Assembly (NCBI GenBank): GCA_022826005.1
Contig: JAJDVT010000121.1
Span: 1-64,000, forward strand
DNA: 64,000 nucleotides
DNA from: Gemmatimonadota bacterium
GTDB lineage: Bacteria > Gemmatimonadota > Gemmatimonadetes > Longimicrobiales > Gaopeijiaceae
Direction: 5' to 3'
The translations under genes and the position numbers were made by a program. Position 1 is the stretch's first letter. Each line of letters starts with the position of its first letter. A model generated the notes under the pieces. The model searched no databases, was not told the DNA's origin, and was given only the letters and a program-made list of their open reading frames with translations. Below, piece by piece: positions 1,456 to 36,455 of the stretch.

Positions 1456-2964
1456 ATGCACCCGACCCCTCGTGGCATTCTCCGCCACGCCGCCCCCTGC
1501 CTGCTGCTGGCGCTGCTCGCTCCCCTGCCCGCCGCGCACGCCCAGCCCACGGAACGCATCTGGGGTACGGTGCATACCACGGACGGTGCGCGCCACGAGG
1601 GATTCCTGCGCTTCGGCGGGCGGGGCTCGGGCCAGGGGCACGCCGCCAACTGGACCGATCTCCTGCTCGGCCGGGAGAACATCCGGGAAGAGCCGTTTCG
1701 CGTGTGGATAGACTCCGCCCGGGGCGGAGGCCCCTTCCTGCGCACCGTCGAGCTGAAGGGCTACCGGATTTCCTGGAACGAACTGAGCGGCGACGCCGTC
1801 AGATACGTCCGGTTCGCGGTCCCGTTCGGATCGGTCCAGGAGATCATCGTGCACGGCGAAGTGGCCGGACTGCAGCCGAGGCTACTCTCGCTCGGGGCAC
1901 GGGTCGAAGCCGTGCTTAGGCCGCTGAACGAGGGCGCGGGCGATGGCACCGGGGAGCGGGAGAGGCGATGGCTGATGGGCGAGAGCGCCCTGTTCTGGGT
2001 GGGACGCGCCGTCGAAGTGGAGGACGGCCAGGGCGGTCGCGATACGCTCGACGGGGCTGACGTCGCACGAATCGAGTTCGCTGCGGCCCCACTAGGCCCC
2101 ACCACCTCGTCGGAGCGGCTCTACGGAACCATCGAAGACGCCTCCGGCCGACAGTTCACGGGACCGGTGAGCTGGCGTGACTGGAAGCTGTCTCCGTCGG
2201 ACATGCTGGACGGCTGGACCGACCGGTCTTCGCCTCCCGGCGCGATCGCCTTCGGTTCCATACGCTCCGTGGAGCGGTTGCCCGACGACACCGATGACGA
2301 GTCCGAACCGGGGATCCGCGTGACGATGGCCAACGGGGAAGTGGTGGACCTTCCCGACCGGACGGGGGTGGAGACCTTCTCGATCGTGGTGCTGGACCAC
2401 GGCCTTGGCCGGGTGACGGTCAGTTCACTCAACTTCAGGTCGCTGCGCTTACACGACCCCGTGGAGGGTCCCGGTGGAGGTCCGGCAGGTTCGGCGGCGT
2501 CGGACGAGGCAGGGTACGACGCCTTCGGCAACGGCGCGCACCTGCGGGCCACGGTGGTGACGCGCGGCGGTGCCGAGTACGAAGGCAGGATCCGCTGGGG
2601 CACGCCGAAGAACACAACGTGGGACCACCTGCGGGGGAACTCGGACGGGGTGGGGATGTATGTGCGCTTCGCCAGGATCCGCCGGGTCGAACTGCTGGAG
2701 TTCCCGTACGTGGGGCCCGAACGTACGGGAAGGACCGATTTTGAACACGGTCGCGTGCGCGTCACCCTGCTGGACGGGCGCTCCTACGAGATGTCAGGGA
2801 TCGACGATCTCGGCGAAAAAAACGTGGGCATTCTCGTGCTGCCGACCGGCCAGGGGGATGATTCGGGCTGGCGGCGGGTGGGCTGGGAGGATCTCCGCGA
2901 GGTCAGGTTCGACCATCCGGGCACCAGCGGTGTCCGGCCGCCAGACCAGGAGGGGTGGCAGTGA
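1456..2964 (+). CDS. A1: secreted protein with three internal repeats
   Basis: A 502-residue protein with a clear signal peptide (MHPTPRGILRHAAPC, hydrophobic core, cleavage near AHAQ). The mature part has three copies of a module starting with a beta segment G-T-V/I-x-x-x-x-G-x-x-x-x-G-x-(L/V/I)-x-(F/W) and continuing to a (S/T)xDxLxG turn: around residues 33-65 (WGTVHTTDGARHEGFLRF), 220-245 (LYGTIEDASGRQFTG) and 360-395 (RATVVTRGGAEYEGRIRWG). Each is followed by a strand of the form IRFxxIRxVE. No family name is recognised. Its stop overlaps the GTG start of the B1 barrel gene, so the two are probably made together. It is a close paralogue of A2 at 5338. Confidence 0.8.
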   Translation: MHPTPRGILRHAAPCLLLALLAPLPAAHAQPTERIWGTVHTTDGARHEGFLRFGGRGSGQGHAANWTDLLLGRENIREEPFRVWIDSARGGGPFLRTVELKGYRISWNELSGDAVRYVRFAVPFGSVQEIIVHGEVAGLQPRLLSLGARVEAVLRPLNEGAGDGTGERERRWLMGESALFWVGRAVEVEDGQGGRDTLDGADVARIEFAAAPLGPTTSSERLYGTIEDASGRQFTGPVSWRDWKLSPSDMLDGWTDRSSPPGAIAFGSIRSVERLPDDTDDESEPGIRVTMANGEVVDLPDRTGVETFSIVVLDHGLGRVTVSSLNFRSLRLHDPVEGPGGGPAGSAASDEAGYDAFGNGAHLRATVVTRGGAEYEGRIRWGTPKNTTWDHLRGNSDGVGMYVRFARIRRVELLEFPYVGPERTGRTDFEHGRVRVTLLDGRSYEMSGIDDLGEKNVGILVLPTGQGDDSGWRRVGWEDLREVRFDHPGTSGVRPPDQEGWQ

Positions 2965-5333
2965 AGGTGAAGAAACGAAGCCTCGAATCCGTATACCATG
3001 TGAACCGCGTGCCTGTCGCGAGACCCCTCGCCCTCACCGCAATCGCATCCGCCACCCTTCTCGCACCTGCATCCTCCTCCACCGCCCAGCCCCCTCCCGG
3101 TCAGGACCGCTTCGCGCCGGACGCCTTCCTCGATCCCGCGGCGCGCGAAATCTACACGATCGCCTACGACCAGTGGGACGCGGCCGGCGCGAACGTCCTG
3201 CGCTACACGGCGCGGATCGAGCAGCGGATCGCGGCGGGTCTTCGCACCCCGCTCCGGGACCGGACCTTCTACCATAGCGAGAGTGCGGTGCGCTCCTTCT
3301 GGCAGCGGGATCGCCGCTCGGTCATCCAGGTTCTGGGCTCGCGCTCGGAATACCCCGGGCGGAGCATCGCCATCCGTGAAGCCGAGGAATCCGGGATCCT
3401 CTACTGGCTCCAAGAGTTCCCCTTCGAAGAGCCGTTCGCTCCCGGCAGCGACCAGCTCTTCATCGGAGCGGACCGCGATGCGGCACCCTTTCAGCCCAGC
3501 GAAGACGAATTCTGGCTCGCCCACCCGCTCGGCCAGAACGCCGACACCCTCTACCGGTTCCAGAGCGGCGACACCACCACGGTGACCCTGCAGGACGGGC
3601 GGCAGCTCGTCACGGTTCGGCTCGATGTGCTCCCGCGCGAGATCGATCCCCGCCGGATCAGCGGGTCCCTGTGGATCGAACCGGGCAGCGGTGCGCTCGT
3701 CCGCGGCCTGTACCGCCTGAGCCGGCCCGTGAACCTGCTTCGCGACATCCCCGAGGCACGGGAGGACGGCGTGGACGACAACCCCTTCATGCCCGGCTTC
3801 CTGAAGCCCATCACCTTCGAGATGAGGCTCATCGTTGTGGACTACTCCCTCTGGGACTTCAAGGCGTGGCTGCCCCGGGCGATGCACCTCGAGGGCGAGA
3901 TGGCCATGGGGATCTTCAAGGTTCCGGTCCGCACCGACGCCAAGTACACGATCGAATCGGTGACGCTTCAGGACGAAGCCGGAGCCGAGGTCCTGGAGGA
4001 GCTGCTGTTTGGAGAGCCCCTCACGGAGGTCAACTTCGACACGCGGGCCGAGGCGATGGCCTTCATCGCGCAGCTCCTTTCGGAGGACGCCGGGACGAGC
4101 TACGCGCCGATCTCGCCCGACAGCGTCGGGGCGCGCCGCAGCCGCTGGATCGCACCCGGGGACCACAGCATCATCGAGAACAGTCCTGATCTGCCTCCAC
4201 CGATCTGGGAGTACGAGCCGGGGCTCCCCTCCGACGAGGAAATCGAGAGGTATGTCAGTCACCTGGCCAGTCTTCCGGTTCCTCCGCTGCTGGAGAGCGG
4301 ATGGAACTTCGACTGGGGCTGGAGCGGACGGGACATGCTGCGGTACAACCGGGTCGAGGCGCTCGCCGTTGGAGGGGGGCTGGAACGATCGCTTCACGGG
4401 TCGTACAGGCTCACCGCTTCCGGGTATTTCGGGGTCGCGGACCTTCGGCCCAAGGCGCGGCTCGACCTGGAGCGGTCGACCGTGCTTCGCCGCCTGAAGC
4501 TCGGCGCCTACCACGAGCTTCGCCCTACCGAAGCCGAGAGCGGATACCTCGGACTCGGCAATTCGCTCGACGCCTTCTTCTTCGGGCGGGACAACGGGGA
4601 GTACTACTACGCCACCGGGGCCGACCTGACCTGGCGTCCGCCCGCGATCGCGACCCAGTCCTTCCAGGCCCGGCTGTACGCCGAGCGCCAGTCGCCCGCG
4701 GAGACCAGCACCAACTTCGCGCTCTTCCGGGCGTTCAACAGGAAGTGGGACTTCCGCCCCAATGTGGCGGCCGACGAGGTCGACGAGGCAGGGGCCGAAC
4801 TGCGGTTGTCGCCGTGGTGGGGGAACGATCCGGTGGGTGCCCGCCTCGGGCTTGAGTTGTTCGGGCGCGGGGCCGTGTGGCGGGTGCCTGGGGCCGAGGG
4901 CGGCGAACCGTACGGCCAGGCCAGCGCCACCGTGCGGGCCGTCGTCCCGCTGGCGGGCAGCGGATGGCAGCAACGGCGGATCGGAATTGAAGTGGCCGGC
5001 GGACACACCTGGGGTCAGGCTCCGGTCCAGCGTTCCTGGTTCCTGGGCGCCGGAGGGACCCTGCGCGGCTACCCCGCCTCGACGCTCTCCGGCCTTTCCT
5101 TCCTGAGGGGCCGCGTCGAACTGGCGCGGAACTACGATTTCATCGGGGGAAGCCTGTTCGGGGACGCGGGCTGGGCGGGTCCGCCCGGCGAATTCGACGC
5201 CGATGGCATCCTTTACGGGGTCGGTGTGGGATTGAGCATCCTCGACGGCCTTGTCCGCTTCGACCTGTCGCAGGGGCTGAAGGGGCCGAAGAGGGACTTC
5301 CGCGTCGAGCTGTACCTGGATCACATCCTGTAG
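2961..5333 (+). CDS. B1: Omp85-like outer-membrane barrel with a large periplasmic region
   Basis: A 790-residue protein. GTG 2961 overlaps the A1 stop (GTGA) and is preceded by AGGAGGGG; GTG 2955 is an alternative. A signal peptide (VARPLALTAIASATLLAP, cleavage near STAQ) leads to a conserved N-terminal block beginning FAPDAFLDPAAREIY, a central beta-rich block (TLYRFQSGDTTTVTL, DYSLWDFKAWLPRAM) and a C-terminal barrel of some 370 residues. The barrel carries the Omp85-type GGTLRGYPAS segment, then SLFGDAGWAG and a terminal strand ending in Leu, like bacterial surface antigens (BamA/TamA superfamily). No POTRA repeats are obvious. Role unknown; it may insert, display or export its A partner (inference). 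Confidence 0.8.
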   Translation: MKVKKRSLESVYHVNRVPVARPLALTAIASATLLAPASSSTAQPPPGQDRFAPDAFLDPAAREIYTIAYDQWDAAGANVLRYTARIEQRIAAGLRTPLRDRTFYHSESAVRSFWQRDRRSVIQVLGSRSEYPGRSIAIREAEESGILYWLQEFPFEEPFAPGSDQLFIGADRDAAPFQPSEDEFWLAHPLGQNADTLYRFQSGDTTTVTLQDGRQLVTVRLDVLPREIDPRRISGSLWIEPGSGALVRGLYRLSRPVNLLRDIPEAREDGVDDNPFMPGFLKPITFEMRLIVVDYSLWDFKAWLPRAMHLEGEMAMGIFKVPVRTDAKYTIESVTLQDEAGAEVLEELLFGEPLTEVNFDTRAEAMAFIAQLLSEDAGTSYAPISPDSVGARRSRWIAPGDHSIIENSPDLPPPIWEYEPGLPSDEEIERYVSHLASLPVPPLLESGWNFDWGWSGRDMLRYNRVEALAVGGGLERSLHGSYRLTASGYFGVADLRPKARLDLERSTVLRRLKLGAYHELRPTEAESGYLGLGNSLDAFFFGRDNGEYYYATGADLTWRPPAIATQSFQARLYAERQSPAETSTNFALFRAFNRKWDFRPNVAADEVDEAGAELRLSPWWGNDPVGARLGLELFGRGAVWRVPGAEGGEPYGQASATVRAVVPLAGSGWQQRRIGIEVAGGHTWGQAPVQRSWFLGAGGTLRGYPASTLSGLSFLRGRVELARNYDFIGGSLFGDAGWAGPPGEFDADGILYGVGVGLSILDGLVRFDLSQGLKGPKRDFRVELYLDHIL

Positions 5334-5337
5334 TCCC

Positions 5338-6885
5338 GTGTCTGGAATCCGTGGCCCTGGCCTGTTGCCCCACCTGCCGGTCGTCCTGCTGTGCCTGCTA
5401 AGCTCTTCCCTCGCCGGTCCGGTTCTCGCTCAGTCCCCGGAGCCGGCCGAAGCGCCGGCCGCGAACCGGATCTGGGGAGTGGTCTTCACGAAGGGAGGGG
5501 AGGGATACGCGGGATTCCTCCGCTTCGTTTCGGCGCGGCACTCAGCTAGCTGGGTCGATTCCTTCCAGGCGGAGCAGTCGGTCGGAGACGAGCCGTTTCG
5601 CGCCTGGGCGAACGCTATTCGGGATGGCGCGCCCTCGGTCCGAACCGTCGAGTTGAAGGGCTACCGAATCACGTGGAACACCGGCGAAGACGACTTCTCC
5701 AGTAGAAGCGGTGATTTCCCGGGAACCAGAGTGATCCGCATTCCCTTTGGATCCCTGGCGGATCTCAGGGGGCAGCCACCCCGGGGGCGGACCCTTTTCC
5801 TCAGCATCGGGCTTCGCGGCCCCGGGGCGAACGACGGGGAAACCCCGCCGAAGCCCGAGCTCGTCTGGTCCGGTGCCGGACGGGGTCTCATTCTTCGCTA
5901 CACCGACGACTGGCGCAGCACCACGATCGAGGTGGAGGGTCTCGACGGTGCCCATGCGACGGTCGCCTTCAGAGATGTCGAGTCGGTGGCGTTCCAGCCG
6001 CCCCCGGGAGCCGGGGAACCACCCTCGGCCCCCCTCTTCGGAACGGCGGTGGACCGGTCCGGCCGCTCGTTCACGGGGTTTGTGAACCTGGATGGGAACA
6101 CCGTGCTGGAGTCGGACATCCTGGAGGGATGGTTCGACGGGCGGTCGTCCCGTTCGATTCCACTGGGCGACATCCGCGCCCTCGAGCGTGTCACCATGGA
6201 GACCGGGCGGGGCCCGTCGGAGGGCTTGCGCGTCACGCTGGCCGCCGGCGAAGCGGTCGAGCTCGCCCCGGGCCGGGAGCGGCGGGGAAGTTCGATCGCC
6301 GTCGCCGTGACCGATCCCGGACTTGGCACGGTGACCATGGATTGGGAAGCATTCAGCGCTCTTCACCTTCACGACCCGGATGGCTATGCCGCCGGCTCGG
6401 CCGGCTGTCTGGGGGACAGGGTGGGGTCGGCACCAACAGCTCTCGGCTACGACTCCTTCGATGGCGGCACGCCCGTGCGGGGAACGGTCGTGACCGGCAC
6501 AGGCGAGGAGTTCGAGGGACGCATTCGGTGGGGCACCCTGAAGGAATGGTCCTGGGACCTCCTGCACGGATCAATGGACGGCACGGAGCTGGCTGTACGA
6601 TTCGCGAACGTTCGGAGCATCGAGCGGATGGCGGCCCCTGACCAGCCACCCGCCCCGGGCGGGGCGGGCGATGCCCCGGCGGGCCGCATCCGGATCAACC
6701 TGCTGGATGGGCGGACCTGCGAAATGTCCGTGCAGGGAGACATCGGGCCGGGGGATGCGGGAATTCTGGTGCGGCCGGCGGACGACGGGACCGACGAGGA
6801 CCGCTCCGGATGGCGGCTGATCAGGTGGCGGGATGTCCGAATCGTGAGGTTCGAGCATCCAGGACGGGGGGTGCCCGGATCGTGA
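5338..6885 (+). CDS. A2: secreted protein with three internal repeats
   Basis: A 515-residue paralogue of A1. It starts at GTG 5338, four bases after the B1 stop, without an obvious ribosome binding site, and has a signal peptide (hydrophobic VVLLCLLSSSLAGPV, cleavage near VLAQ). The three repeats are visible again: RIWGVVFTKGGEGYAGFLRF, LFGTAVDRSGRSFTGFV and RGTVVTGTGEEFEGRIRWG. Shared landmarks with A1 include TVELKGYRI, RINLLDGRTCEMS and a terminal RFEHPG. Its stop overlaps the start of B2 (GTGA), repeating the A1-B1 arrangement. Function unknown. Confidence 0.8.
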   Translation: MSGIRGPGLLPHLPVVLLCLLSSSLAGPVLAQSPEPAEAPAANRIWGVVFTKGGEGYAGFLRFVSARHSASWVDSFQAEQSVGDEPFRAWANAIRDGAPSVRTVELKGYRITWNTGEDDFSSRSGDFPGTRVIRIPFGSLADLRGQPPRGRTLFLSIGLRGPGANDGETPPKPELVWSGAGRGLILRYTDDWRSTTIEVEGLDGAHATVAFRDVESVAFQPPPGAGEPPSAPLFGTAVDRSGRSFTGFVNLDGNTVLESDILEGWFDGRSSRSIPLGDIRALERVTMETGRGPSEGLRVTLAAGEAVELAPGRERRGSSIAVAVTDPGLGTVTMDWEAFSALHLHDPDGYAAGSAGCLGDRVGSAPTALGYDSFDGGTPVRGTVVTGTGEEFEGRIRWGTLKEWSWDLLHGSMDGTELAVRFANVRSIERMAAPDQPPAPGGAGDAPAGRIRINLLDGRTCEMSVQGDIGPGDAGILVRPADDGTDEDRSGWRLIRWRDVRIVRFEHPGRGVPGS

Positions 6886-9245
6886 CGCTGATGACTCCTT
6901 CGTCCGCCGGGGCCGCAATGGTAGCGCTGTTCGCCTCGGTTCCGCCGGCTGGGGCCGCACAGACCCCGCCGGAAAAGCCCAGGTTCGCCAGCGACGCTTT
7001 CCTCGATCCGGCCGCCCGTGAGCTCTTCACAATGGCCTTCGACGGGTGGGGCGATCTGGGGGAGCAGGTCGAGCGCTACACGGCCCGGATCGACAAGCGC
7101 GTGGCCGTCAGCTTGCGCGCGCTGCGGAAGGATCGGGTGGTGTACCACAGCGAGACTGCGGTCCGCGCCTTCTGGGAGCGGAATCGCCGTCCCATAGTGC
7201 AGGTTCTGGGCTCGAGCGCCCGCTACCCGATGCGCGACCTTGTGCTCGGCGGAAACGACATGGCCTGGCTTGAGGAGATCCCGTTTGACGCGCCGTTCGT
7301 ACCCGGCAGCGACCAGCTCTTCGTTGGCACGGAACATGGCGTGACGGACTTCATGCCGACCGAGGGCGACTTCCTCCTCAAGCACCCGCTGGCCGAGGGG
7401 GCCGACACCCTCTACCGGTTCCGGAGCGGCGACACCACAACGATCATCCTGCCCGACGGGCGCCAGTTGGCCGCAGTGCAGCTCGACGTAACCCCCCGGG
7501 AATCAAGTCCGCATCGGATCAGCGGAAAACTCAGCATCGATCCGGCCAGCGGGGCCCTCGTGCAGGGCGTCTATCGCGTGAGCCGGCGCCTGGATGTGGT
7601 TCGGGACATCCCCGAATTCCGTGAGGAAGTGGCCTCTTCCCTGGCGTACCGCCTCATTCCGGGGTTCATGAAGCCGTTCAGCGCCGAAATGCGGGTGGTG
7701 GCCGTGGACTATTCCCTGTGGGACTTCAAGGTGTGGCTGCCGCGGACGGTCCGCTACGAAGGCGATGTCTCGATGGGGGCGGTGAAGGTGCCGGTCGAAG
7801 TCGAGGTCAAGTACCGCATCGAGTCGGTGGCGCTGCAGGACGAGTTGGCTGCCGAGGGACCGGAAGGGATGCCTGAGGGCGAGTCCCTTAAGCACATCCA
7901 CTTCGAGACCGAGGCGGAGGCGATGGCCTTCATCGCACAGCTGCTCTCGGAGGATGACGAGTTCACCTACCGGTCTGTCACCGATACGCTTCGGCCGCCG
8001 GTGGGGCAGACTACAGGTCTGCGTCCGTTCACGGCAGCCGGCCGGCGGTGGAGTCGTTGGATCACACCGGACGACCCCGGCGTTCTGGAAGAGAGCCCCC
8101 ACCTTCCTCCGCCGATATGGGAGGATGCGGTCGGATTCCCTTCGGCGGACCAGCGCGGCCAGTACATCCGACAGCTGGCAAGCCTTCCCGCGCCCCCGGT
8201 GAAGGGAGTTCTCTGGGACTTCAGCTGGGGCTGGGGAGGACAGGATCTGCTTCGCTACAACAGGGTCGAGGGACCGGCCGTGGGCGCAAGCTCGAAGTGG
8301 ACTCTGCATGGGTCGTACCGCCTCGGCGCTTCGGGCCACTTCGGTTTCGCGGACCTGAGACCGAAGGTCCGTCTCGATGTAGAGCGCTCCACCCTGCGCC
8401 GGCGGATCGAGCTTGGTGCCTACCACGAACTTCGCGCGACCGATCTGGAGAGCGGGTATCTGGGCTCCGGCAATTCCTTCGACGCGTTCCTCTTCGGGCG
8501 GGACAACGGGGAGTACTTCGGCGTGACCGGGGCCGACCTGACCTGGCGGCCGCCCGCGAGCGCGCGGCAATCCTTCTCCTTGAGGGCTTACGCCGAGCGG
8601 CAATGGGCGGTGGAGACCAGCACCGGCTTCGCCCTCTTCCGTGCCTTCGACCGCGACTGGGAGTTCCGGCCCAATCTGGCGGCGGACGAGGTGGAGGAGG
8701 CGGGGGGCGAACTGCGTCTGTCGCCGTGGTGGGGCATGGATCCCGAGCGGGCCGAGTTCGGGATTGAGGTCTTCGGCCGAAGCGCTGTATGGCGGCGGGC
8801 GGGCGAGGAAGTCCGGGAGAACTACACCCAGGCAAGCGCCACCGTGACAACGATCTTCCCGCTTCGGGGCAGCGGGTGGCGACGGTCGCGGATGGCGCTC
8901 GAAGTGGCCGGCGGGCACACGTGGGGGCAGGCACCGGTGCAGCGTTCCTGGTTTGTGGGAGGCCCCGGGAGCCTGCGCGGCTACCCGGCCTCGACGCTGT
9001 CCGGCCTCTCGTTCCTGAGGGGCCGGTTGGAGATGTCGCGAACTTTCGAGTTGTTCGGAGGAAGCCTGTTCGGGGACGCCGGGTGGGCGGGGCCGGCCAG
9101 CGGATTCGACTCCGGCGACATCCTCTACGGGATCGGCACGGGCCTGAGCATCATGGACGGGTGGATGCGCTTCGACCTGTCGCAGGGGCTGAAGGGGCCG
9201 CAGAAGGGGTTCCGCATCGAAGTGTATCTCTACGGGCTCCTGTAG
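6882..9245 (+). CDS. B2: Omp85-like outer-membrane barrel paralogue
   Basis: A 787-residue paralogue of B1 with the same order: signal peptide (AAMVALFASVPPAGAAQ), N-terminal block with FASDAFLDPAARELF, a central region with DYSLWDFKVWLPR, and a C-terminal barrel with GSLRGYPASTLSGLSFLRGR and SLFGDAGWAG. GTG 6882 overlaps the A2 stop; ATG 6891 in the same frame is an equally plausible start. The last residues (VYLYGLL) resemble a terminal barrel strand. The coupled A2-B2 order argues that A and B proteins act as a pair. Confidence 0.8.
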   Translation: MTLMTPSSAGAAMVALFASVPPAGAAQTPPEKPRFASDAFLDPAARELFTMAFDGWGDLGEQVERYTARIDKRVAVSLRALRKDRVVYHSETAVRAFWERNRRPIVQVLGSSARYPMRDLVLGGNDMAWLEEIPFDAPFVPGSDQLFVGTEHGVTDFMPTEGDFLLKHPLAEGADTLYRFRSGDTTTIILPDGRQLAAVQLDVTPRESSPHRISGKLSIDPASGALVQGVYRVSRRLDVVRDIPEFREEVASSLAYRLIPGFMKPFSAEMRVVAVDYSLWDFKVWLPRTVRYEGDVSMGAVKVPVEVEVKYRIESVALQDELAAEGPEGMPEGESLKHIHFETEAEAMAFIAQLLSEDDEFTYRSVTDTLRPPVGQTTGLRPFTAAGRRWSRWITPDDPGVLEESPHLPPPIWEDAVGFPSADQRGQYIRQLASLPAPPVKGVLWDFSWGWGGQDLLRYNRVEGPAVGASSKWTLHGSYRLGASGHFGFADLRPKVRLDVERSTLRRRIELGAYHELRATDLESGYLGSGNSFDAFLFGRDNGEYFGVTGADLTWRPPASARQSFSLRAYAERQWAVETSTGFALFRAFDRDWEFRPNLAADEVEEAGGELRLSPWWGMDPERAEFGIEVFGRSAVWRRAGEEVRENYTQASATVTTIFPLRGSGWRRSRMALEVAGGHTWGQAPVQRSWFVGGPGSLRGYPASTLSGLSFLRGRLEMSRTFELFGGSLFGDAGWAGPASGFDSGDILYGIGTGLSIMDGWMRFDLSQGLKGPQKGFRIEVYLYGLL

Positions 9246-9397
9246 CGGTCCGTGGAGACTGGTCCGCGTGGGGCGCAGCAGACGCGAGGAACCGTGCGGG
9301 CACAAGGGCTGGATGCACCGCGTCCGTTTCCTTCCCACATTGGGACGATGTTCGCCTGTTGTTGTGATTCGCGTACCTGCGCCGGACGGTCCGTAGC

Positions 9398-11713
9398 GTG
9401 ATTCTGCCAAGGCGCGCCGGGGCCGTCGCGGTGGCGCTCGTCATCCTGGCTGCGGGCGCTAGTGCCACCGCCCAGGCCGCCCCGGAGCAGGCCCGGTTCG
9501 CGGAGGACGCGTTCCTGGATCCGGCCGCGCGGAATCTCTTCAGCAGGGCCTTCGCCGGGTGGGACGCGGCCGGCCAAAGCCTCGATGCCTACACGGCACG
9601 CATCGACCAGCGGATCGCGGCGGCTCTGCGCACGCCGCTGAAGGACCGGGTGATCTACAACGGCGAGGTCGCCGTCCGGGCGTTCTGGGAACGGGACCGG
9701 CTGCCGGTGGTTCAACTGCTGGGCTCGCGGGCCCGCTATCCCGGGCGAAGCCTCTTCATGCGGGAGGCGATGCTGGGATGGATCGAGGAAATCCCCTTCG
9801 ACGGGCCGGTCGTGCCCGGGAGCGACCGGCTCTTCATCGGCACCGGCGAAGGCGCGGGGTATTTCATCCCCGCGTCGGACGACTACCTGGCGCACCCGCT
9901 CGGCGAGGGCGCGGACACGCTGTACCGTTTCCGGAGCGGGGACACCACCACCATCACCTTCCCCGACGGGCGCCAACAGGCTGCGGTCAGGCTCGATGTG
10001 ATTCCCAGGGTGTCCGACCCCCACCTGATCAGCGGGACGCTCTGGATCGATCCGGTGAGCGGGGCCCTGGTGCGGGGCGCCTACCGCGTCGCCAGGCGGC
10101 TGGACATGGCCCGGGAGTTCCCGGAGGAGATCGGCCGAACGCTGGAATACCGACTGGTGCCCGGCCTGCTGAAGCCGCTCACCGTGGACATCCAGCTGGT
10201 AGTGGTGGACTACTCGCTCTGGGAGTTCGAAGTGTGGATGCCGCGAATGGTCCGCTACGAGGGGCAGGTCGCCGCGGGAGTCGTGAAGATACCGCTGTCG
10301 ATCGACTATGTGTACCGGATCGAATCGGTAGCGCGGAGTGAGGAGGTGGCGGACGCGGCGGAGAGCCCCGTGGGCCAGTCCCGCGAGGGAGCCCCGCCCG
10401 AACCCGACTGGCAGCGGATCGCCGATCTTGTGCAGATGCTGTCCGAGGAGGGTGGCGTCAGCTACCGCGCCGTCTCAAACGACGAACTGGATCCCGAACC
10501 GGGCCGTGGAGTGGCGTGGATCGCGCCGGTTGACCCGGGCGTGCTGGAAGACAGTCCCCACCTGCCTCCGCCGATCTGGGAGGATGCGCCCGGACTCCTG
10601 TCGGAGGACGATGTGGAGGCATACTTCGAACTACTCGCCGGGATTCCGCAGGCTCCGGTACGCGCCTTCGTCGCGGACCTGAATGTGGGTTGGGAACGGC
10701 CGGATCTGCTTCGCTACAACCGGGTCGAGGGACCCGCCCTGGGCGGGCGGTTCGAGTGGACGATGCACGGGTCGTACAGTCTCGATGCCACGGCATTCTT
10801 CGGGTTCGCCGACCGGGACCCCAAGGTGCGGCTGGACGTGGAACGTATGACCGTGCTCCGCCGCGTGGGGCTGGGCGTCTACCACGAACTTCGTGCGACC
10901 GAGACCGGGAGCGGATACCTCGGTCCCGGCAATTCGCTCGACGCGTTCCTCTTCGGGCGCGACAACGGTGAGTACTTCGGCGCGACCGGTGCAGACTTCA
11001 CCTGGCGCCCACCCGCAGCCGCACGGCAGTCCTTCCTCGTACGGGCCTATGCGGAGCGCCAGGAGCCCGTCTCGTCCAACACCGGTTTCGCGCTCATCCG
11101 GGCCTTCGACGAGGAATGGGACTTCCGGCCCAACCTCGCGGCCGACGAGGTCGAAGAAGCCGGGGGTGAGGTGCGTCTGACGCCAAGGTGGGGCAAGGAT
11201 TCGGAGCGGGCCGAGCTCGGCGTCGACCTCTTTGGGCGGACCGCGATGTGGCGGCATGCGGGGAATGAGGGTGAAGAGGCCCGTGAGGGGTACGCGCAGG
11301 CCAGTGCGACAGTGACGGCGATCGTTCCGCTGTGGGCGAGCGGATGGCAGCGGGCGCGGCTCGGGTTGCAAGCCGCAGGCGGTCACACGTGGGGTCAGGC
11401 TCCGGTCCAGCGTTCCTGGTTTCTGGGAGGTCCCCGTACCTTGCGCGGCTACCCCGCATCGGAGATGTCGGGCATGTCGTACTTCAGGGGCCGGACCGAG
11501 CTGTCGGGGACCTTTGAATGGCTGGGCGCGAGCGTGTTCACGGACGCGGGGTGGGCGGGTCCGGCTGGCGACTTCGAATCCGGCGACATCCTGTACGGGG
11601 TCGGCGTGGGCCTGAGCCTGCTGGACGGCGTGATGCGGCTTGATCTGTCGCGGGGGCTCGGCGGGCCGGCCCGCGGCATTCGCATCGAAGCCTATTTCGA
11701 CGCGATTCTGTAG
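9398..11713 (+). CDS. B3: orphan Omp85-like outer-membrane barrel paralogue
   Basis: A 771-residue third member of the B family, starting at GTG 9398 with a signal peptide (AGAVAVALVILAAGASATAQA). The N-terminal block (FAEDAFLDPAARNLF), the DYSLWEFEVWMPRMV segment and the barrel segment RTLRGYPASEMSG are conserved. Unlike B1 and B2 it has no A gene before it; the 152 bp between B2 and B3 hold no coding sequence that I can see. It is either an unpaired duplicate or it serves the A proteins encoded upstream. Confidence 0.8.
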   Translation: MILPRRAGAVAVALVILAAGASATAQAAPEQARFAEDAFLDPAARNLFSRAFAGWDAAGQSLDAYTARIDQRIAAALRTPLKDRVIYNGEVAVRAFWERDRLPVVQLLGSRARYPGRSLFMREAMLGWIEEIPFDGPVVPGSDRLFIGTGEGAGYFIPASDDYLAHPLGEGADTLYRFRSGDTTTITFPDGRQQAAVRLDVIPRVSDPHLISGTLWIDPVSGALVRGAYRVARRLDMAREFPEEIGRTLEYRLVPGLLKPLTVDIQLVVVDYSLWEFEVWMPRMVRYEGQVAAGVVKIPLSIDYVYRIESVARSEEVADAAESPVGQSREGAPPEPDWQRIADLVQMLSEEGGVSYRAVSNDELDPEPGRGVAWIAPVDPGVLEDSPHLPPPIWEDAPGLLSEDDVEAYFELLAGIPQAPVRAFVADLNVGWERPDLLRYNRVEGPALGGRFEWTMHGSYSLDATAFFGFADRDPKVRLDVERMTVLRRVGLGVYHELRATETGSGYLGPGNSLDAFLFGRDNGEYFGATGADFTWRPPAAARQSFLVRAYAERQEPVSSNTGFALIRAFDEEWDFRPNLAADEVEEAGGEVRLTPRWGKDSERAELGVDLFGRTAMWRHAGNEGEEAREGYAQASATVTAIVPLWASGWQRARLGLQAAGGHTWGQAPVQRSWFLGGPRTLRGYPASEMSGMSYFRGRTELSGTFEWLGASVFTDAGWAGPAGDFESGDILYGVGVGLSLLDGVMRLDLSRGLGGPARGIRIEAYFDAIL

Positions 11714-14176: not shown

Positions 14177-14292
14177 TGTGACGAAACGTAATGCCCCGAG
14201 CCGGGTCGCTCACATGGGTACCGCCATTGACGCACCGCCGGCCCGGCAGCCCGGCGGCCCGCTTGTCCCACTCGCTCACAGGAGGCCCGTGT

Positions 14293-17200
14293 ATGCGACC
14301 GCTTGCCCATGGCGTGCGATCAGCCATGCTGCTCATGCTCACGCCCTTCGCCACCATGGCCCAACAGGAGGAACCAAGGGACCCCGACCGGGGCCTCCCC
14401 CTCGAACCCGCCCGCTGGGCACGATTCACCACCAACGAGGGGACCTGGATCTCGCTCGATGTGAGCCCGGACGGCCAGACCATCGTCTTCGACATGGTCG
14501 GAGACCTGTACTCGATGCCGATCACCGGCGGTGAGGCGACACGCCTGACCAGCGGGATGGCCTACGACATGCAGCCGCGCTTCAGTCCGGATGGCGAGCG
14601 CATCGTCTTCGTGTCCGACCGGAGCGGCGACAACAACGTCTGGCTGATGCCGGCCGCGGGCGGTGAGCCGACCCAGCTGAGCAAGGGGGTCGGAAGCTAC
14701 TTCCTGTCGCCGGAGTGGATGCCCGACGGAAAGTACGTGATCGTGTCCAGATCCTACACCAGCGTGGAGAAGCTGTGGCTCTACCACGTGGACGGGGGGA
14801 CAGGACCCGAGATGGTCGGGGGAGGCGGCGGGGCGCGCATGCTGGGCGCCGCCGTCGATGCCGAGGGGCGCCAGATCTGGTACGCGCAGCGAAACGGCAC
14901 CTGGCAATACAACGCCATCTTCCCGCAGTACCAGATCTGGATGTACGACCGCAAGACGGGCACCCGCACGCCGATGACCAACCGCTACGGGTCGGCGTTC
15001 CGCCCGGCGCTCTCCTCCGATGGGTCGCTGCTGGCCTATGGGAGCCGCGAGGATGCCGATACCGGGATGCGCCTGCGCGAGCTCGACTCCGGGGAGGAGC
15101 GCTGGCTGGCCTACCCGGTGCAGCGCGACGACATGGAGTCGACGGCGTCGATGGACGTGCTTCCGGGCTACTCCTTCACGCCCGAGTCGGACGCGCTGGT
15201 GATGTCGTACGGCGGGCGCATCTGGCGGGTGCCGGTGGACGGGAGCGACCCGGTGGAGATTCCCTTCACGGTCAACGCCGAGGTCGCGATCGGGCCCGAG
15301 GTCGAGTTCGAGTACCCGATCGAAGACACGCCCACCTTCACGGTCAAGCAGATCCGCGACGCGCGCGCCTCGCCCGACGGCAGCCGCATTGCGTTCGTCG
15401 CGCTGGACCGGCTGTACGTGGCGGAGCTGCCCGACGGGACGCCGCGTCGGCTCACCAGCGACGAGGTCGGCGAGTTTCAGCCGGTGTGGTCGCCGGACGG
15501 GAGCCAGGTCGCCTACGTGACGTGGGACGACATCGCCGGCGAGGGGTACATCCGGCGCGTTGCCGCGGACGGCGGCGCGTCCGCCAACCTGACGACCGCG
15601 CCCGGCTACTACCAGCAGCTGGCGTGGTCGCCGGACGGAGAGCGGATCGTGGCGATGCGCGCTGCATCGCGTAATGTGCGGGACGTGTTGGGACTCTCGG
15701 CCGGCACCGGCCAGGGCGCGGAGTTCATCTGGATCCCGGCCGGAGGCGGGGACGAGACGGTGATCGGCCCCACCCTGGGCCGCCGCGCGCCCCACTTCAC
15801 CGAGGATCCGGATCGCATCTACTACTACGGGACGGCACGCCCGGACCCGATTCCGGGATCACCCCCGGCTCCGGCGCTCGGCACCGCTCTCTCCTCGGCC
15901 CGCTGGGACGACACCGACAAGCGGGCCCACGTGCGGGTCACAGCGCGCACCAACAGCGCGGCGGGCAGTCTGCGGCCCGGGTACGAGCTGTCCGAGAACA
16001 GCGACCTGCTCCTGCCGCAGGAGGTGTTCGACGACCTGGATGACGAGCCGCGCGAGACGGGCTTCCCCCAGTCGGCCAGCCTGATCCAGATGGCGCCGCA
16101 GGGCGACCAGGCGCTCGCCTGGATCGGGGACAACCTGTATGTGGTCACGGTTCCCGACCTGGGTGCCGCGGTGCCAGCGATCGAAGTCGCCAAGCCGGAC
16201 TCGGCGGCCGTCCCCGCGCGCCAGCTGAACGAGCTGGGAATCGAATTCCCCTCCTGGGGCGCGGACGGACGCACCGTGCACTGGTGGCTCGGCAACGCGC
16301 TCTTCACCTACGACCTCGACGCGGCCGCGGGCGATCCCGACTACGCCCCCACCGAGCAGCAGATCGCCGTGACCGCCCAGCGCGACATTCCCCAGGGCAC
16401 GGTCGTGCTGCGGGGCGCGCGCGCGATCACCATGAACGGCGACGAGATCCTCGAGAACGCGGACATCGTGGTCACGAACAACCGGATCGCGTCGGTTTCG
16501 GCGGGCCCGGGCGAGGTCCCCGAGGGCGCGACGGTCATCGATGTCGCGGGCAAGACCATCGTTCCCGGCTTCGTCGACACCCATGCGCACATGTGGAACC
16601 TGTGGCAGCTGCACTGGTCCCGTTCGTGGCTCTACCAGGCCAATCTCGCCTACGGAGTCACCACCACGCGCGACCCGCAGACGGCCACGACCGACGTTCT
16701 CTCCTACGAGGACCTCGTCCGCGCGGGGAGGATGGTCGGTCCCCGCGTCTATTCGACCGGCCCCGGAGTCTTCTCGTCCGACTACATCGACAGCTACGAG
16801 CACGCGCTGGACGTGCTCAGGAAGTACAGCCGCTACTACGACACCAAGACCTTCAAGATGTACATGTCCGGCAACCGCCGGCAGCGCCAGTGGCTGATCA
16901 TGGCGGCCCGCGAGCTTGAACTCATGCCGACCACCGAGGGCGGCCTGGAATACCGGCTCGACATGACGCACGCGATCGACGGCTACCCGGGGGTCGAGCA
17001 CTCGCTGCCGATCGTCCCGGCGTACCAGGACATCGTGGAGCTCTTCGCGACATCCGGCACCGTCAATTCGCCGACGCTGCTCGTCTCCTACGGCGGTCCC
17101 TGGGCCGAGAACTACTTCTTCACCAACGAAGACCTCTTCGGCGACGAGAAGCTGACCCACTTCACCCCGCGCCGGGAGCTGGAGAACAAGGCGCGGCGCC

Positions 17201-17676
17201 TGCAGAGCGACGGACCGGGACCCGGCGGATGGTTCATGGAGGAGGAGTACGCGTTCCCGAAGCACTCCGCCTGGCTGGTGAAGCTCGTGGAAGGCGGCGG
17301 GAAGACCGGAGTGGGGAGCCACGGACAGCTGCAGGGCCTCGGCTACCACTGGGAGCTGTGGGCGATGCAGAGCGGCGACATGGACGAACACGACGCGCTG
17401 CGCGCGGCAACGATCATGGGCGCCGAAGCGATCGGGCTGGGCCGCGACCTCGGTTCGATCGAGGCGGGCAAGCTGGCCGACCTGGTCATCCTGGATGCGA
17501 ATCCGCTCGACAACATCCGCAACTCGAACACCATCCATCAGGTGATGATGAACGGACGGCTCTACGACGGCGACACCCTCGACGAGGTGTGGCCGAGGCA
17601 GCGGGCGGCGCCGGACGAGCCATGGAGGCACCTCGCGCCGAACGTCGCGGCGGGGATCCGGGGAGGTGACAAATGA
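14293..17676 (+). CDS. Secreted TolB-like propeller/amidohydrolase fusion 1
   Basis: A 1127-residue protein. GGAGG lies 7 bases before ATG 14293, and a signal peptide follows (SAMLLMLTPFATMAQ). Residues about 50-650 form a TolB/WD40-like (PD40) propeller with repeated SPDG signatures (DVSPDGQTIVFD, RFSPDGERIVFVSDRSG, WSPDGSQVAYVTWDD). The C-terminal domain, from about 700, is an amidohydrolase: the HxH metal motif in GFVDTHAHMW (about residue 760), TTTRDPQT, and a C-terminal AGKLADLVILDANPLD strand. The family contains imidazolonepropionase- and prolidase-like hydrolases; the substrate here is unknown. The next paralogue overlaps its stop by ATGA. Confidence 0.88.
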   Translation: MRPLAHGVRSAMLLMLTPFATMAQQEEPRDPDRGLPLEPARWARFTTNEGTWISLDVSPDGQTIVFDMVGDLYSMPITGGEATRLTSGMAYDMQPRFSPDGERIVFVSDRSGDNNVWLMPAAGGEPTQLSKGVGSYFLSPEWMPDGKYVIVSRSYTSVEKLWLYHVDGGTGPEMVGGGGGARMLGAAVDAEGRQIWYAQRNGTWQYNAIFPQYQIWMYDRKTGTRTPMTNRYGSAFRPALSSDGSLLAYGSREDADTGMRLRELDSGEERWLAYPVQRDDMESTASMDVLPGYSFTPESDALVMSYGGRIWRVPVDGSDPVEIPFTVNAEVAIGPEVEFEYPIEDTPTFTVKQIRDARASPDGSRIAFVALDRLYVAELPDGTPRRLTSDEVGEFQPVWSPDGSQVAYVTWDDIAGEGYIRRVAADGGASANLTTAPGYYQQLAWSPDGERIVAMRAASRNVRDVLGLSAGTGQGAEFIWIPAGGGDETVIGPTLGRRAPHFTEDPDRIYYYGTARPDPIPGSPPAPALGTALSSARWDDTDKRAHVRVTARTNSAAGSLRPGYELSENSDLLLPQEVFDDLDDEPRETGFPQSASLIQMAPQGDQALAWIGDNLYVVTVPDLGAAVPAIEVAKPDSAAVPARQLNELGIEFPSWGADGRTVHWWLGNALFTYDLDAAAGDPDYAPTEQQIAVTAQRDIPQGTVVLRGARAITMNGDEILENADIVVTNNRIASVSAGPGEVPEGATVIDVAGKTIVPGFVDTHAHMWNLWQLHWSRSWLYQANLAYGVTTTRDPQTATTDVLSYEDLVRAGRMVGPRVYSTGPGVFSSDYIDSYEHALDVLRKYSRYYDTKTFKMYMSGNRRQRQWLIMAARELELMPTTEGGLEYRLDMTHAIDGYPGVEHSLPIVPAYQDIVELFATSGTVNSPTLLVSYGGPWAENYFFTNEDLFGDEKLTHFTPRRELENKARRLQSDGPGPGGWFMEEEYAFPKHSAWLVKLVEGGGKTGVGSHGQLQGLGYHWELWAMQSGDMDEHDALRAATIMGAEAIGLGRDLGSIEAGKLADLVILDANPLDNIRNSNTIHQVMMNGRLYDGDTLDEVWPRQRAAPDEPWRHLAPNVAAGIRGGDK

Positions 17677-20600
17677 GCGCCCGTGCGAAGTTTTCCGGAT
17701 GGGCGGCGCCGGTGATGGCGCTCGCCCTGCTCGCAGTCATGACCGCGCCCCTGATGGCCCAGATCCCAAGGCCAGGCGGAGGCCGCCAGAACCCCCTGCC
17801 GCTCCGCAGCGCCCGCACGGCCGAGTTCACCGCCACCGAAGGCACCTGGATCTCCCTGGACGTCAGCCCCGACGGCCGGATGATCGTCTTCGACCTCCTC
17901 GGCGACCTCTACACCATGCCGATCACCGGCGGCAGGGCGTCCCCGCTGCTCACCGGCATGGCCTACGAGACGCAGCCGCGGTTCAGCCCCGACGGGGAAT
18001 CGGTGGTGTTCGTATCCGACCGCAGCGGCGGCGACAACATCTGGACGATGCGGCTCGACCGCACCGACACCACCCAGGTCACCCGGGGCAACAACAACCT
18101 CTACCTGTCGCCCGAGTGGGAGCCGGGCGGCGAATTCGTCGTCGCCAGCCGCTCCAGCGGACTGGGCGGAGCCGCCTCGCTGATCATGGTCAACGCCGAG
18201 CGCGGTTCGCCGGTGTCGTTGAGCGGGATTACACCAGGCAAGAACATCGGGGCCGCGTTCAGCCCGGACGGACGCCACATGTGGTACGCGAGGTCGTTTT
18301 CCGACTGGACCTACAACGCCACCCTGCCCATCTACCAGCTGTACCGGTACGACTTCGAGAGGGCCACCAGTTCCGTGATGACGAACCGTTACGGCTCGGC
18401 GATGCGGCCCGCCGTCTCCCCGGACGGGCAGTGGCTCGTCTATGCCTCGCGCCACGGCCCCGAGACCGGCCTGCTCAAGCGCAACCTCGAGACGGAGGAC
18501 GAGGAGTGGCTGGCCTACCCGGTGCAGCGCGACGAACAGGAGTCGCGGGCGCCGCTCGACGTGCACCCGGGCTATTCCTTCATGCCGGATGGCTCGGCCA
18601 TCGTGGTTTCGTACGGCGGGAAGATCTGGAACGTGCCGATGAACGGCAGCGAACCCACCGAGATTCCCTTCGAGGTCGAGGTCGAGCTGGCGATCGGTCC
18701 CGAGGTCGACTTCGACTTCCAGATCGACACGGCCGAGATGGTAACCGCCAGCCAGATCCGCACGCCGGTGGCATCTCCCGACGGCGAACGGATGGCCTTC
18801 GTCGCCTTCGACCGCCTTTGGGTCCGGGACATGCCCGACGGCGAGCCCGAGCGGCTGACCGAGGCGGACGCGGGCGAGTTCCACCCGCAGTGGTCTCCCG
18901 ACGGACAGTGGATCGCGTACGTGACGTGGGACGATTCCGAGGGCGGCCACATCATGAAGGTGCCGGCGTCCGGCGGCGAGCCCATGCGGCTCACGGCGAG
19001 CGCGGCCGCGTACTCGAATGTGGCCTGGGCACCCGGCGGCGACCGGATCGTCGCGACCCGTTCGGCGGCCGGCGACCTGCTGGCGACCTCCGGCCTCTTC
19101 GCCGGCCCGCTCGGCGGCACCTTCGTCTGGGTGCCGTCCGACGCGGCCGAACCCGCCGAACCCGAGGTGATCTCTCCCACGGGCATCCGCGACGTGATGC
19201 ACTTCGTCGAGGACGAACCGGACCGGATCTACGCCTACAGCCCGATCGAGGGGCTGGTGTCGTTCCGGTGGGACGGGACCGACGTGAAGAGTCATCTCCT
19301 GGTGCGCGGCACCGTGGGGGCGGGGGGAATCACTGACCCGCACCCGGAGCAGTGGGAGTACCTGCCGCGCCGCGTCTTCCCGTGGAGGAAGGGGCCGGAC
19401 CCGACGGAACCGATCGTGGACCCGTCGGATCCGGTGATGGACCCCGCCGATCCGGATCCTGACCCGCCCGCCGAACCGGGATTCCCGCAGCCCGCCGGGC
19501 TGGTGATGATGTCCCCGCAGGGCGACCGGGCCTTCGCCCAGATCGGCAGGGACATCTACGTCGTCGATGTGCCGGACGTGGGGGCGCAGCCCGCCAGCCT
19601 GGTGGCTTCCCCAGGCGCCGCCCGCAGGCTGACCGACGTCGGCGGCGAGTTCCCGTCCTGGGCCGCGGACGGATCCATGGTGCACTGGGCGTTCGGCAAC
19701 GTGCTGTTCAGCTATGATCTGGACCATGTGGAGGCGGAGGAGGCGGAGGCGAAGGAGATCCGCCACGAGCGCGCGCTGATCCGGGCGCGTGCGATCGCCG
19801 TGACCGACACGCTGAAGGAGAAGCGCACCGAGGCGGACAGCCTCGAGAATGCGGACGGGGAGGTGCCGGATTCGCTCGAAGCGGAGATCGCGCGGCTGGC
19901 CGGCGACTCGGTGCAGGTGGTGGCCGATTCGCTGATGGCGCGCGCCGACTCGCTGCAGAGGGCGGCGGCGGAGTTCGCCGAGAAGGCGAGCGCGATCCGG
20001 GCTGGCGACAAGGAGATCCTCGAGGATTCGACCGAGACCTACGAGGCGAAGGAACGGAGGATCGAGGCCAGGCTGCCGCGCGATATTCCGCGTGGCACGG
20101 TCGCGCTGACCGGGGGGCGCATCATCACGATGACGGACATGCCGGGCGACACCACCGGAGCGCCCCACATCATCGAGGGCGGGGTGGTGGTCGTCAGCGA
20201 CAACAGGATCGTGGACGTGGGCGTTGCCGACTCGGTCGAGATCCCCGACAGCGCGGTCGTGATCGACGTCACCGGCAACACGCTGGTGCCCGGCTTCGTC
20301 GACACGCACTACCACGCGCAGTGGCTGGTGCAGGAGATCCATCCCGAGGAGGTGTGGCAGTACCTGAGCACCCTGTCCTACGGCGTCACCACCACGCGGG
20401 ATCCCCAGACGGCGGTCACCGACATCCTGAGCTACACCGACCGCGTGAACATCGGCGGAATGACCGGGCCGCGCATCTACTCCACCGGGCCGGGCGTCTT
20501 CAGCAGCGAGCCGATCCGCGACGCCGACCACGCGAAGACCATCCTGCGGCGGTATTCCCAGTACTTCGACACGAAGACGCTCAAGATGTACATGTCCGGG

Positions 20601-21425
20601 AACCGCCAGCAGCGGCAGTGGATCATCCAGGCCGCCCGGGAGCTCCGCCTGATGCCCACCACCGAAGGCGGACTCGACTACAAGATCGACATCACGCACG
20701 CAATCGACGGGTACTCCGGCGTCGAGCACAACCTGCCGATCGCGCCGATGTTCTCCGATGTGGTCGAACTCTTCAAGACTTCCGGTACCACGAACTCCCC
20801 CACCCTCCTCGTGTCGTACGGCGGGCCGTTCGGCGAGAACTTCTTCTACGTCACGGAGAACGCACACGACGACGCGAAGCTGAACGTGTTCGCGCCGGCG
20901 GACTACCTCGACGCAAGAACGCGGCGCAGGGGACCCGGCGCCGGCGGCAGCCCCGGAGCAGCCGGCTGGTTCCTGGAAGAGGAACACGTCTTCCCCCGGC
21001 ATGCGGAATTCGTGAAGCAGATGCTGGAGGGCGATGCGCCCGTCGGCGTGGGGAGCCACGGACAGCTGCAGGGACTCGGATACCACTGGGAGCTGTGGGC
21101 GATGGCCGCGGGCGGAGCGTCGAACTACGACATGCTGCGGGCCGCGACGATCCTGGGTGCGGAGGCGATCGGCTTCGGAAACCACCTCGGCACCATCGAG
21201 AAGGACAAGTTCGCCGACATCGTGATCCTCAACTCCAACCCGCTCGACGACCTGCGCAACACGGTGGACATCCGCTACGTGATGAAGGATGGCCGCCTGT
21301 ACGACGGCATGACGCTGGACGAGGTATACCCCGAGCCGCGCCCCTTCCAGCGCAAGGGTCCGGTTGAGGGGAGCGCGGGGGATGCGCCGGCGGGGATCGG
21401 GAAGGTGGGGAGCGCGAGACGGTAG
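17673..21425 (+). CDS. Secreted TolB-like propeller/amidohydrolase fusion 2
   Basis: A 1250-residue paralogue, ATGA-coupled to the gene before it. After a signal peptide (VMALALLAVMTAPLMAQ) come the propeller (DVSPDGRMIVFDLLGDLY, RFSPDGESVVFVSDRSG) and a C-terminal amidohydrolase with HxH in GFVDTHYHAQW (about residue 874) and DKFADIVILNSNPLDDL. Unlike copy 1 it has about 110 charged residues inserted between the domains (from about residue 685: VEAEEAEAKEIRHERALIRA and onward), rich in Glu, Ala, Arg and predicted to form a coiled coil. It may work with copy 1 as a hetero-oligomer, or act on a related substrate (inference). Confidence 0.87.
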   Translation: MSARAKFSGWAAPVMALALLAVMTAPLMAQIPRPGGGRQNPLPLRSARTAEFTATEGTWISLDVSPDGRMIVFDLLGDLYTMPITGGRASPLLTGMAYETQPRFSPDGESVVFVSDRSGGDNIWTMRLDRTDTTQVTRGNNNLYLSPEWEPGGEFVVASRSSGLGGAASLIMVNAERGSPVSLSGITPGKNIGAAFSPDGRHMWYARSFSDWTYNATLPIYQLYRYDFERATSSVMTNRYGSAMRPAVSPDGQWLVYASRHGPETGLLKRNLETEDEEWLAYPVQRDEQESRAPLDVHPGYSFMPDGSAIVVSYGGKIWNVPMNGSEPTEIPFEVEVELAIGPEVDFDFQIDTAEMVTASQIRTPVASPDGERMAFVAFDRLWVRDMPDGEPERLTEADAGEFHPQWSPDGQWIAYVTWDDSEGGHIMKVPASGGEPMRLTASAAAYSNVAWAPGGDRIVATRSAAGDLLATSGLFAGPLGGTFVWVPSDAAEPAEPEVISPTGIRDVMHFVEDEPDRIYAYSPIEGLVSFRWDGTDVKSHLLVRGTVGAGGITDPHPEQWEYLPRRVFPWRKGPDPTEPIVDPSDPVMDPADPDPDPPAEPGFPQPAGLVMMSPQGDRAFAQIGRDIYVVDVPDVGAQPASLVASPGAARRLTDVGGEFPSWAADGSMVHWAFGNVLFSYDLDHVEAEEAEAKEIRHERALIRARAIAVTDTLKEKRTEADSLENADGEVPDSLEAEIARLAGDSVQVVADSLMARADSLQRAAAEFAEKASAIRAGDKEILEDSTETYEAKERRIEARLPRDIPRGTVALTGGRIITMTDMPGDTTGAPHIIEGGVVVVSDNRIVDVGVADSVEIPDSAVVIDVTGNTLVPGFVDTHYHAQWLVQEIHPEEVWQYLSTLSYGVTTTRDPQTAVTDILSYTDRVNIGGMTGPRIYSTGPGVFSSEPIRDADHAKTILRRYSQYFDTKTLKMYMSGNRQQRQWIIQAARELRLMPTTEGGLDYKIDITHAIDGYSGVEHNLPIAPMFSDVVELFKTSGTTNSPTLLVSYGGPFGENFFYVTENAHDDAKLNVFAPADYLDARTRRRGPGAGGSPGAAGWFLEEEHVFPRHAEFVKQMLEGDAPVGVGSHGQLQGLGYHWELWAMAAGGASNYDMLRAATILGAEAIGFGNHLGTIEKDKFADIVILNSNPLDDLRNTVDIRYVMKDGRLYDGMTLDEVYPEPRPFQRKGPVEGSAGDAPAGIGKVGSARR

Positions 21426-21430
21426 GAGGG

Positions 21431-21494
21431 TCGGCCGCCGTCGTGCGCGGGCAGGCTGGCTGGCAAGCTGGCGCTGGCTCACGACGGCGGCCGA
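21431..21494. terminator. 15-bp perfect inverted repeat between convergent genes
   Basis: TCGGCCGCCGTCGTG (21431-21445) and CACGACGGCGGCCGA (21480-21494) are perfect complements around a 34-base spacer. The structure begins 5 bp after the stop of the amidohydrolase gene and lies between convergent genes, so a bidirectional transcription stop is plausible. There is no T-run, and the long loop is unusual for an intrinsic terminator. The tandem 21-bp element copy 2 begins 31 bp beyond it. Confidence 0.5.
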
Positions 21495-21525
21495 ACATTG
21501 TGTGGCGGTTAACTCTGACGGTCAA

Positions 21526-21567
21526 ATGTAACGTAGGTACGACATTAAGTAATGTAAACATTACATT
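21526..21567 (-). promoter_or_regulatory. Tandem 21-bp element, copy 2
   Basis: On the minus strand unit 1 occupies 21567-21547 and unit 2 occupies 21546-21526. Both begin AATGT; unit 2 reads AATGTCGTA, six bases, GTTACAT, and unit 1 contains AATGTAATG and ATTAC. ACATT (21542-21546), four bases, AATGT (21551-21555) is a perfect inverted repeat across the junction. This copy lies between two convergent genes, so it is not upstream of any gene I can recognise. Confidence 0.6.
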
Positions 21568-33881: not shown

Positions 33882-33888
33882 ACCGGCA

Positions 33889-36425: not shown

Positions 36426-36455
36426 ACAGAACAGCCGGAAAGCGAAACCCGGCGT

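Follow-up and report, generated by a model that had tools for sequence, protein, structure and literature searches.

Introduction

Among the described systems closest to the genes reported here are barrels of the Omp85 superfamily. In BamA, the RGF motif of loop L6 contacts E717 and D740, which lie on strands 12 and 13 of the barrel (PMC3871556). The substrate of TpsB, TpsA, is recognised in the periplasm and leaves through the TpsB barrel. Omp85 barrels that lack polypeptide transport-associated (POTRA) domains, such as BBJ25 of Borrelia, were proposed to deliver lipoproteins or lipids (PMC13078400). In the open-licence literature we found no paper on the related family DUF5686 (PF18939), and none on Gemmatimonadota together with Omp85. 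Here we describe two gene families, A and B, that alternate in 64,000 nucleotides of a Gemmatimonadota bacterium (contig JAJDVT010000121.1, positions 1 to 64,000; this whole stretch is called the window below). B is an Omp85-superfamily barrel, predicted to have 16 strands, and A is an exported protein encoded directly ahead of it. The conserved A-B gene pair, carried by marine Gemmatimonadota, is a probable two-part outer-membrane machine. New here are a linker helix in B and an insert in A that track the pairing of the two genes, and the two proteins seem to have evolved parts that fit each other.

Results

Gene array and conservation of the A-B pair

An earlier note on this DNA, made from its letters, had described two alternating and coupled families, and both the order of the genes and their coupling are borne out. 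The five genes read A1-B1-A2-B2-B3, all on the + strand:

1456..2964, + strand: A1, 502 amino acids; signal peptide and three beta modules; no Pfam family
2961..5333, + strand: B1, GTG start; signal peptide, periplasmic domain, linker and predicted 16-strand Omp85-type barrel
5338..6885, + strand: A2, GTG start; 515 amino acids
6882..9245, + strand: B2, GTG start, lying within the GTGA overlap with A2
9398..11713, + strand: B3, GTG start; follows B2, without an A of its own

At both A/B junctions of the window (A1/B1 and A2/B2) the genes overlap by the four bases GTGA. A1 and A2 are 43% identical, and B2 and B3 share 61% and 57% identity with B1; as the note had suggested, pairs were duplicated as units. 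The same A-B-A-B-B content is found in two other genomes of the genus, in one of them split over contigs. The gap between B2 and B3 (9246-9397, 152 bases) reads open, once past the stop of B2, as far as a TGA overlapping the GTG of B3, and so resembles an A/B junction without an A. We do not claim a vestigial A before B3; by eye there is no similarity to A in the 152 bases. The genomes nearest to the source contig (C81) are titled Gemmatimonadota.

We scanned the regions around A and B matches in a phylum sample of 200 genomes from 92 genera, and a second set of 77 loci from public genome contigs; many genomes are common to both sets, and the relatives are mostly metagenome assemblies. A was found in 35 of the 200 genomes (12 of 92 genera) and homologues of B in 183 (83 of 92 genera). 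Setting aside a lone A' type described below, A lies directly upstream of a same-strand B for 33 of the 35 A genes of the phylum sample with enough flanking sequence. The two exceptions are L077, where another gene follows, and L079, where A is split in two frames and no B adjoins. In the public contigs A directly precedes B in about 53 of the 77 loci, and the co-occurrence that the earlier note had expected elsewhere is thus found in both sets. An RTGA four-base overlap is present at 29 of 32 measured A/B junctions, and at the remaining three an overlap is likewise allowed by an in-frame start codon shortly ahead of the stop of A. With such placement and such overlaps, the arrangement cannot be put down to chance. 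The pair also occurs in at least three different, unrelated genomic neighbourhoods, so that its linkage is more than inherited synteny.

In a phylogenetic tree of B, the A-paired Bs form one clade (Shimodaira-Hasegawa-like approximate likelihood ratio test 100) with about two losses, and the out-group Bs stand alone. Probably, the ancestral B stood alone and A joined it once. Loci L117-L119 and L130 are titled Gammaproteobacteria and carry A-B pairs; these are probably mislabelled bins, and L118, the only one of them in the B tree, groups with Gemmatimonadota rows. In one branch of B without A (L126:248-1945, L127:8125-9810, L128:8037-9794 and L131) a different exported protein is encoded before B, endonuclease/exonuclease/phosphatase-like and with a lipoprotein-like start, which is perhaps a swapped partner.

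Segments that track pairing

The segments that distinguish paired from unpaired proteins are, in the window:

4017..4088, + strand: linker helix of B1, PLTEVNFDTRAEAMAFIAQLLSED, the segment that best tracks an own A
7884..7955, + strand: linker helix of B2, SLKHIHFETEAEAMAFIAQLLSED
10379..10450, + strand: linker segment of B3, SREGAPPEPDWQRIADLVQMLSEE, with a degenerate EAM motif
3735..3782, + strand: RDIPE loop of B1, residues 217-232, the second segment tracking an own A
1678..1797, + strand: insert in module 1 of A1 (helix and hairpin, ...FRVWIDSA...RTVELKGYRISW), present in the A of B operons and not in lone A'
5569..5694, + strand: insert in module 1 of A2

The linker helix, which precedes the barrel and has the consensus FxTRAEAMAFIA, is present in 48 of 48 Bs preceded by an A and in none of 26 others (5 that follow a B, 5 A-less members of the clade and 16 out-group rows). 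The full pattern is seen in 44 of the 48, and the other four, read by eye from the rows, still have EAM. Because picking by eye was to be avoided, the scan took in every 12-residue window (737 in total), comparing the A-preceded Bs with the Bs after a B, with the A-less Bs of the clade and with the out-group. The linker segment ranks first in all three comparisons (z 4.7, 6.1 and 3.5); in the A-less comparison the top score belongs to a window beginning at residue 311, a few residues upstream, with the EAM window in tenth place of 737. The RDIPE loop takes third place against the out-group and second place against the other two groups. The degenerate helix of B3, which has no A of its own, is what is expected if the helix serves A.

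On the side of A, the stretch of module 1 between two conserved anchor points measures 54-67 residues in 24 of 24 A proteins versus 22-25 in 5 of 5 lone A'. This corresponds to a pair-specific insert that is some 35-45 residues long and that none of the five lone homologues has.

The barrel of B

The earlier note had placed B in the Omp85 superfamily from its LRGYP segment, and the structural model agrees:

4299..5330, + strand: Omp85-type barrel of B1; VIA-align Z 21.9, root-mean-square deviation (rmsd) 4.2 over 297 residues, to BamA 8xnb_A
5061..5075, + strand: LRGYP, the loop L6 motif, from residue conservation and the BamA precedent cited above
5118-5120 (E) and 5163-5165 (D), + strand: acidic partners of the L6 motif, matching the positions of E717 and D740 of BamA

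The AlphaFold2 model of B1, made with 74 rows, has a predicted local distance difference test score (pLDDT) of 85.9 and a predicted template modelling score (pTM) of 0.83, and in a fold search its residues 405-748 match the barrels of BamA, Sam50 and TamA with Z 19-22. The closed 16-strand barrel that the note had made its test is predicted, the strands counted by DSSP fitting this number provided that residues 406-421 are taken as a single strand. LRGYP falls in the loop that joins strands 11 and 12, and its acidic partners E678 and D693 are on strands 12 and 13, respectively. In the 74 B rows R660 is conserved in 74, G661 in 73, Y/F662 in 68, E678 in 72 and D693 in 71.

By sequence the kinship is more remote. 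All matches of the window Bs to Omp85, ShlB and DUF5686 in Pfam and NCBIfam are sub-threshold; for PF01103 (cut-off 24 bits) B2 reaches 14.5 and B3 16.1 bits, and no match is listed for B1. Other, more distant family members pass this cut-off (L145 30.9, L162 27.7 and L144 24.1 bits). Some Bs have sub-threshold ShlB matches, and the out-group rows L160 and L145 are above the ShlB cut-off. A sequence search of the PDB with B gave weak BamA-like and TamA matches only.

The periplasmic domain of B and its kinship with DUF5686

The conserved periplasmic region of the earlier note is present as a domain in the model, but it is not a POTRA domain by sequence:

3087..3986, + strand: periplasmic domain of B1; about 10 strands and at least 3 helices in the model; LolA-like by topology only

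No POTRA was found in B by sequence at E-values up to 1, and in its own genome PF07244 (POTRA) occurs only on proteins of C104 and C33. A sequence search of the PDB with the N-terminal domain gave nothing meaningful. In our own reading of the AlphaFold2 model the order of helices and strands recalls LolA; of the profile comparisons (hhalign) with LolA or LolA_like, one gave a probability of 6.4% and another 0.2%, neither of them significant, and a control comparison of A with the LolA_like profile was also not significant. The fold search with B lists no POTRA or LolA match for this domain, but its matches are filled by the barrel and it is hence uninformative here. No subfamily with a B-type N-terminal domain is shown among the ten Omp85 subfamilies in the available part of a 2014 survey (PMC4104836).

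B1 scores 13.6 bits against DUF5686, below the cut-off of 39.2. Profile comparison of B with Gemmatimonadota proteins above that cut-off gives a probability of 98.4% (E 8e-15), and with sub-threshold DUF5686-like proteins of the phylum 99.7% (E 1e-25); the RYNRVEG of B is the counterpart of HFNRVDG in DUF5686 proteins. Judged from these profiles, B is distantly related to DUF5686 over its whole length. The same genome encodes, at another place (L008:5213-7834, on G000:C28), a distant B homologue of about 30% identity without an A, and on G000:C45 (L173) a further DUF5686-like protein, also sub-threshold.

The A family

The A proteins belong to a new family and consist of three beta modules that are homologous to each other, in agreement with the secreted protein with three internal beta modules that had been noted earlier:

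1549..2091, + strand: module 1 of A1, containing the pair-specific insert (model and hhalign)
2104..2460, + strand: module 2 of A1 (model and hhalign)
2527..2928, + strand: module 3 of A1 (model and hhalign)

By hhalign module 1 matches module 2 with E 4e-19 and module 3 with 2e-19, and modules 2 and 3 match with 4e-29. The AlphaFold2 model of A1 has a pLDDT of 80 and a pTM of 0.84. The signal peptide of the protein is likely cleavable; a membrane anchor is absent, and the protein is conserved, not hypervariable. A1 and A2 match no family in Pfam or NCBIfam, a PDB sequence search with A gave nothing, and no two-partner secretion (TPS) or haemagglutination family is among the Pfam matches of 29 A rows at E-values up to 0.1. 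In a fold search A matches the ImpE-fold domain of HsiE1 with Z 8.7, 8.6 and 8.3 (4uqz, 4uqx and 4uqy). These values are themselves near the level of chance matches, Z 8.7 corresponding to an rmsd of 8.0 over 114 residues and Z 8.3 to 3.6 over 107; the next row has Z 3.2. Suggestively at most, the HsiE1 ImpE domain is the nearest solved fold of A.

The lone A' type (L078, L082-L086) has, by eye, an N-terminal hydrophobic anchor and no adjoining B. Among the matches listed, the bacterial PH domain bPH_6 (PF10756) is above its cut-off only in the lone homologues L085 (35.8 bits) and L084 (25.4 bits); lone homologues reach E 8e-9, and the A proteins of the window have no match.

Elsewhere in the window, 14191-26150 holds three paralogous propeller-amidohydrolase genes, two in tandem on the + strand and one on the - strand, while exported propeller-like proteins related to each other are encoded in a row at 32608-43359, several of them in tandem (for example 37909-42112).

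Discussion

On balance we lean towards A being a periplasmic subunit that docks on B, where the location, the docking and the cargo are our inference. According to this model, B would cross the inner membrane by Sec and fold in the outer membrane as an Omp85-type barrel of 16 strands bearing a large non-POTRA periplasmic domain. A, co-translated just ahead of B, would also cross by Sec, remain in the periplasm and dock on the periplasmic side of its cognate B. The contact may be formed by the module 1 insert and the beta-module body of A against the linker helix and RDIPE loop of B, and docked A would tune or feed the barrel. The basic activity of B, by which some lipid or protein would be inserted or let through, would predate A and be independent of it. 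In this genus the pairs would have been duplicated as units, and B3 would have lost the docking helix and work without its own A. The pairing segments of B precede its barrel and are on the periplasmic side, which leans towards a docked subunit rather than an exported cargo. HsiE1, the best fold match of A, has a groove next to the barrel of its ImpE fold in which it binds an extended peptide of HsiB1 (PMC4239648), and so offers a precedent for a beta domain that grips a partner. One may speculate further that A is a new type of dedicated subunit for POTRA-less Omp85 barrels, replacing the POTRA arms by clamping the linker helix; the two proteins together would be a minimal insertase or translocase, duplicated as one unit. 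We consider this extension doubtful.

Several points weigh against a docked subunit. The A of L077 has the insert although no B adjoins it, and the EAM motif was first spotted by eye, before the scan. Lineages without A are few in number (with the Bs after a B included, about three losses) and partly divergent overall, and on the B tree there are three label changes for the Bs of paired genomes when the rows of Bs after a B are labelled as paired, which means few independent events. As the lone A' rows all belong to one group, a single event may account for the correlation with the insert. Mutual information between the two proteins (47 pairs, effective number of sequences 35) did not fall on the nominated sites of B; in what is an underpowered analysis, 48% of the 50 highest-scoring pairs involve the A insert, where 14% would be expected. 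Finally, A has no membrane anchor and could also be released from the cell.

The last point leads to the proposal of the earlier note that B exports or displays A. B would then read A in the periplasm and let it out through the barrel, in the manner of TpsB and TpsA, and A would act at the surface or outside. The likely cleavable signal peptide, the A gene just upstream of a cognate Omp85 barrel gene and the ShlB matches, sub-threshold in some Bs and above the cut-off in two out-group rows, would all fit, and so would the docking segments, as TpsB also recognises its substrate in the periplasm. However, A has no match to a TPS-domain family and B has no POTRA, homologues of B are far more widespread than A and stand alone in the out-group, anchored A homologues exist without an adjoining B, and A is conserved and not hypervariable. 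With the pairing segments placed before the barrel as well, we regard export as unlikely.

The two proteins may instead serve one pathway without touching, for example with B moving a lipid or lipoprotein that A binds or modifies in the periplasm; co-translation would then do no more than balance the amounts of A and B. The delivery role proposed for BBJ25, the topology of the B N-terminal domain that recalls LolA and the PH-domain matches of some lone A homologues point in this direction, but the similarity to LolA is not significant by profile comparison, and the joint presence or loss of segments in the two proteins suggests that they do touch; this explanation seems rather unlikely to us. 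Still less probable is that B only forms a pore or scaffold in the outer membrane, having kept the shape of Omp85 but no insertase or translocase activity, and that A is an envelope stabiliser. It would be consistent with the window Bs being below the Pfam Omp85 cut-offs and with the lack of a known function for DUF5686-type proteins in the open-licence literature, but the near-strict RGY, E678 and D693 across the 74 rows suggest that the Omp85 core has been kept, and we hold it to be very unlikely.

DUF5686-type Omp85 barrels are widespread in this phylum, and we found no function for them. The A-B unit of two genes, whose docking candidates are paired and lineage-specific, is a small test case for the role of POTRA-less Omp85 barrels, and it comes with natural controls: B1 and B2 have the helix, B3 does not, and the lone A has no insert.

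Comparison with known systems

Among described systems, TpsB/TpsA resembles the A-B pair in that the partner gene lies directly beside that of an Omp85-superfamily barrel, but it differs in the POTRA and TPS domains, which were not found in B and A, respectively, and A is small and conserved. BBJ25 of Borrelia (PMC13078400) is also a POTRA-less Omp85-like barrel, encoded in an envelope gene cluster with a LolA-like protein nearby; the cluster comprises seven genes with an ABC transporter and no A-like protein is described in it, whereas A-B is a two-gene unit. HsiE1/TagJ (4uqx, 4uqy and 4uqz) is an accessory of type VI secretion with a TPR domain, while A has no family match by sequence; for module 3 of A the ImpE fold of HsiE1 is nonetheless the best match, with Z 8.3-8.7 across 107-117 residues. 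The curated DUF5686 family has no described A-like partner and the window Bs are far below its cut-off, but its whole-length layout is the same as that of B. Unlike BamA, TamA and Sam50, B has no POTRA by sequence, the POTRA-bearing proteins of its genome being separate ones, and it has another N-terminal domain and a dedicated partner in A. What B shares with them is the predicted 16-strand barrel (Z about 21) and the RGY of loop L6 with its acidic partners on strands 12 and 13.

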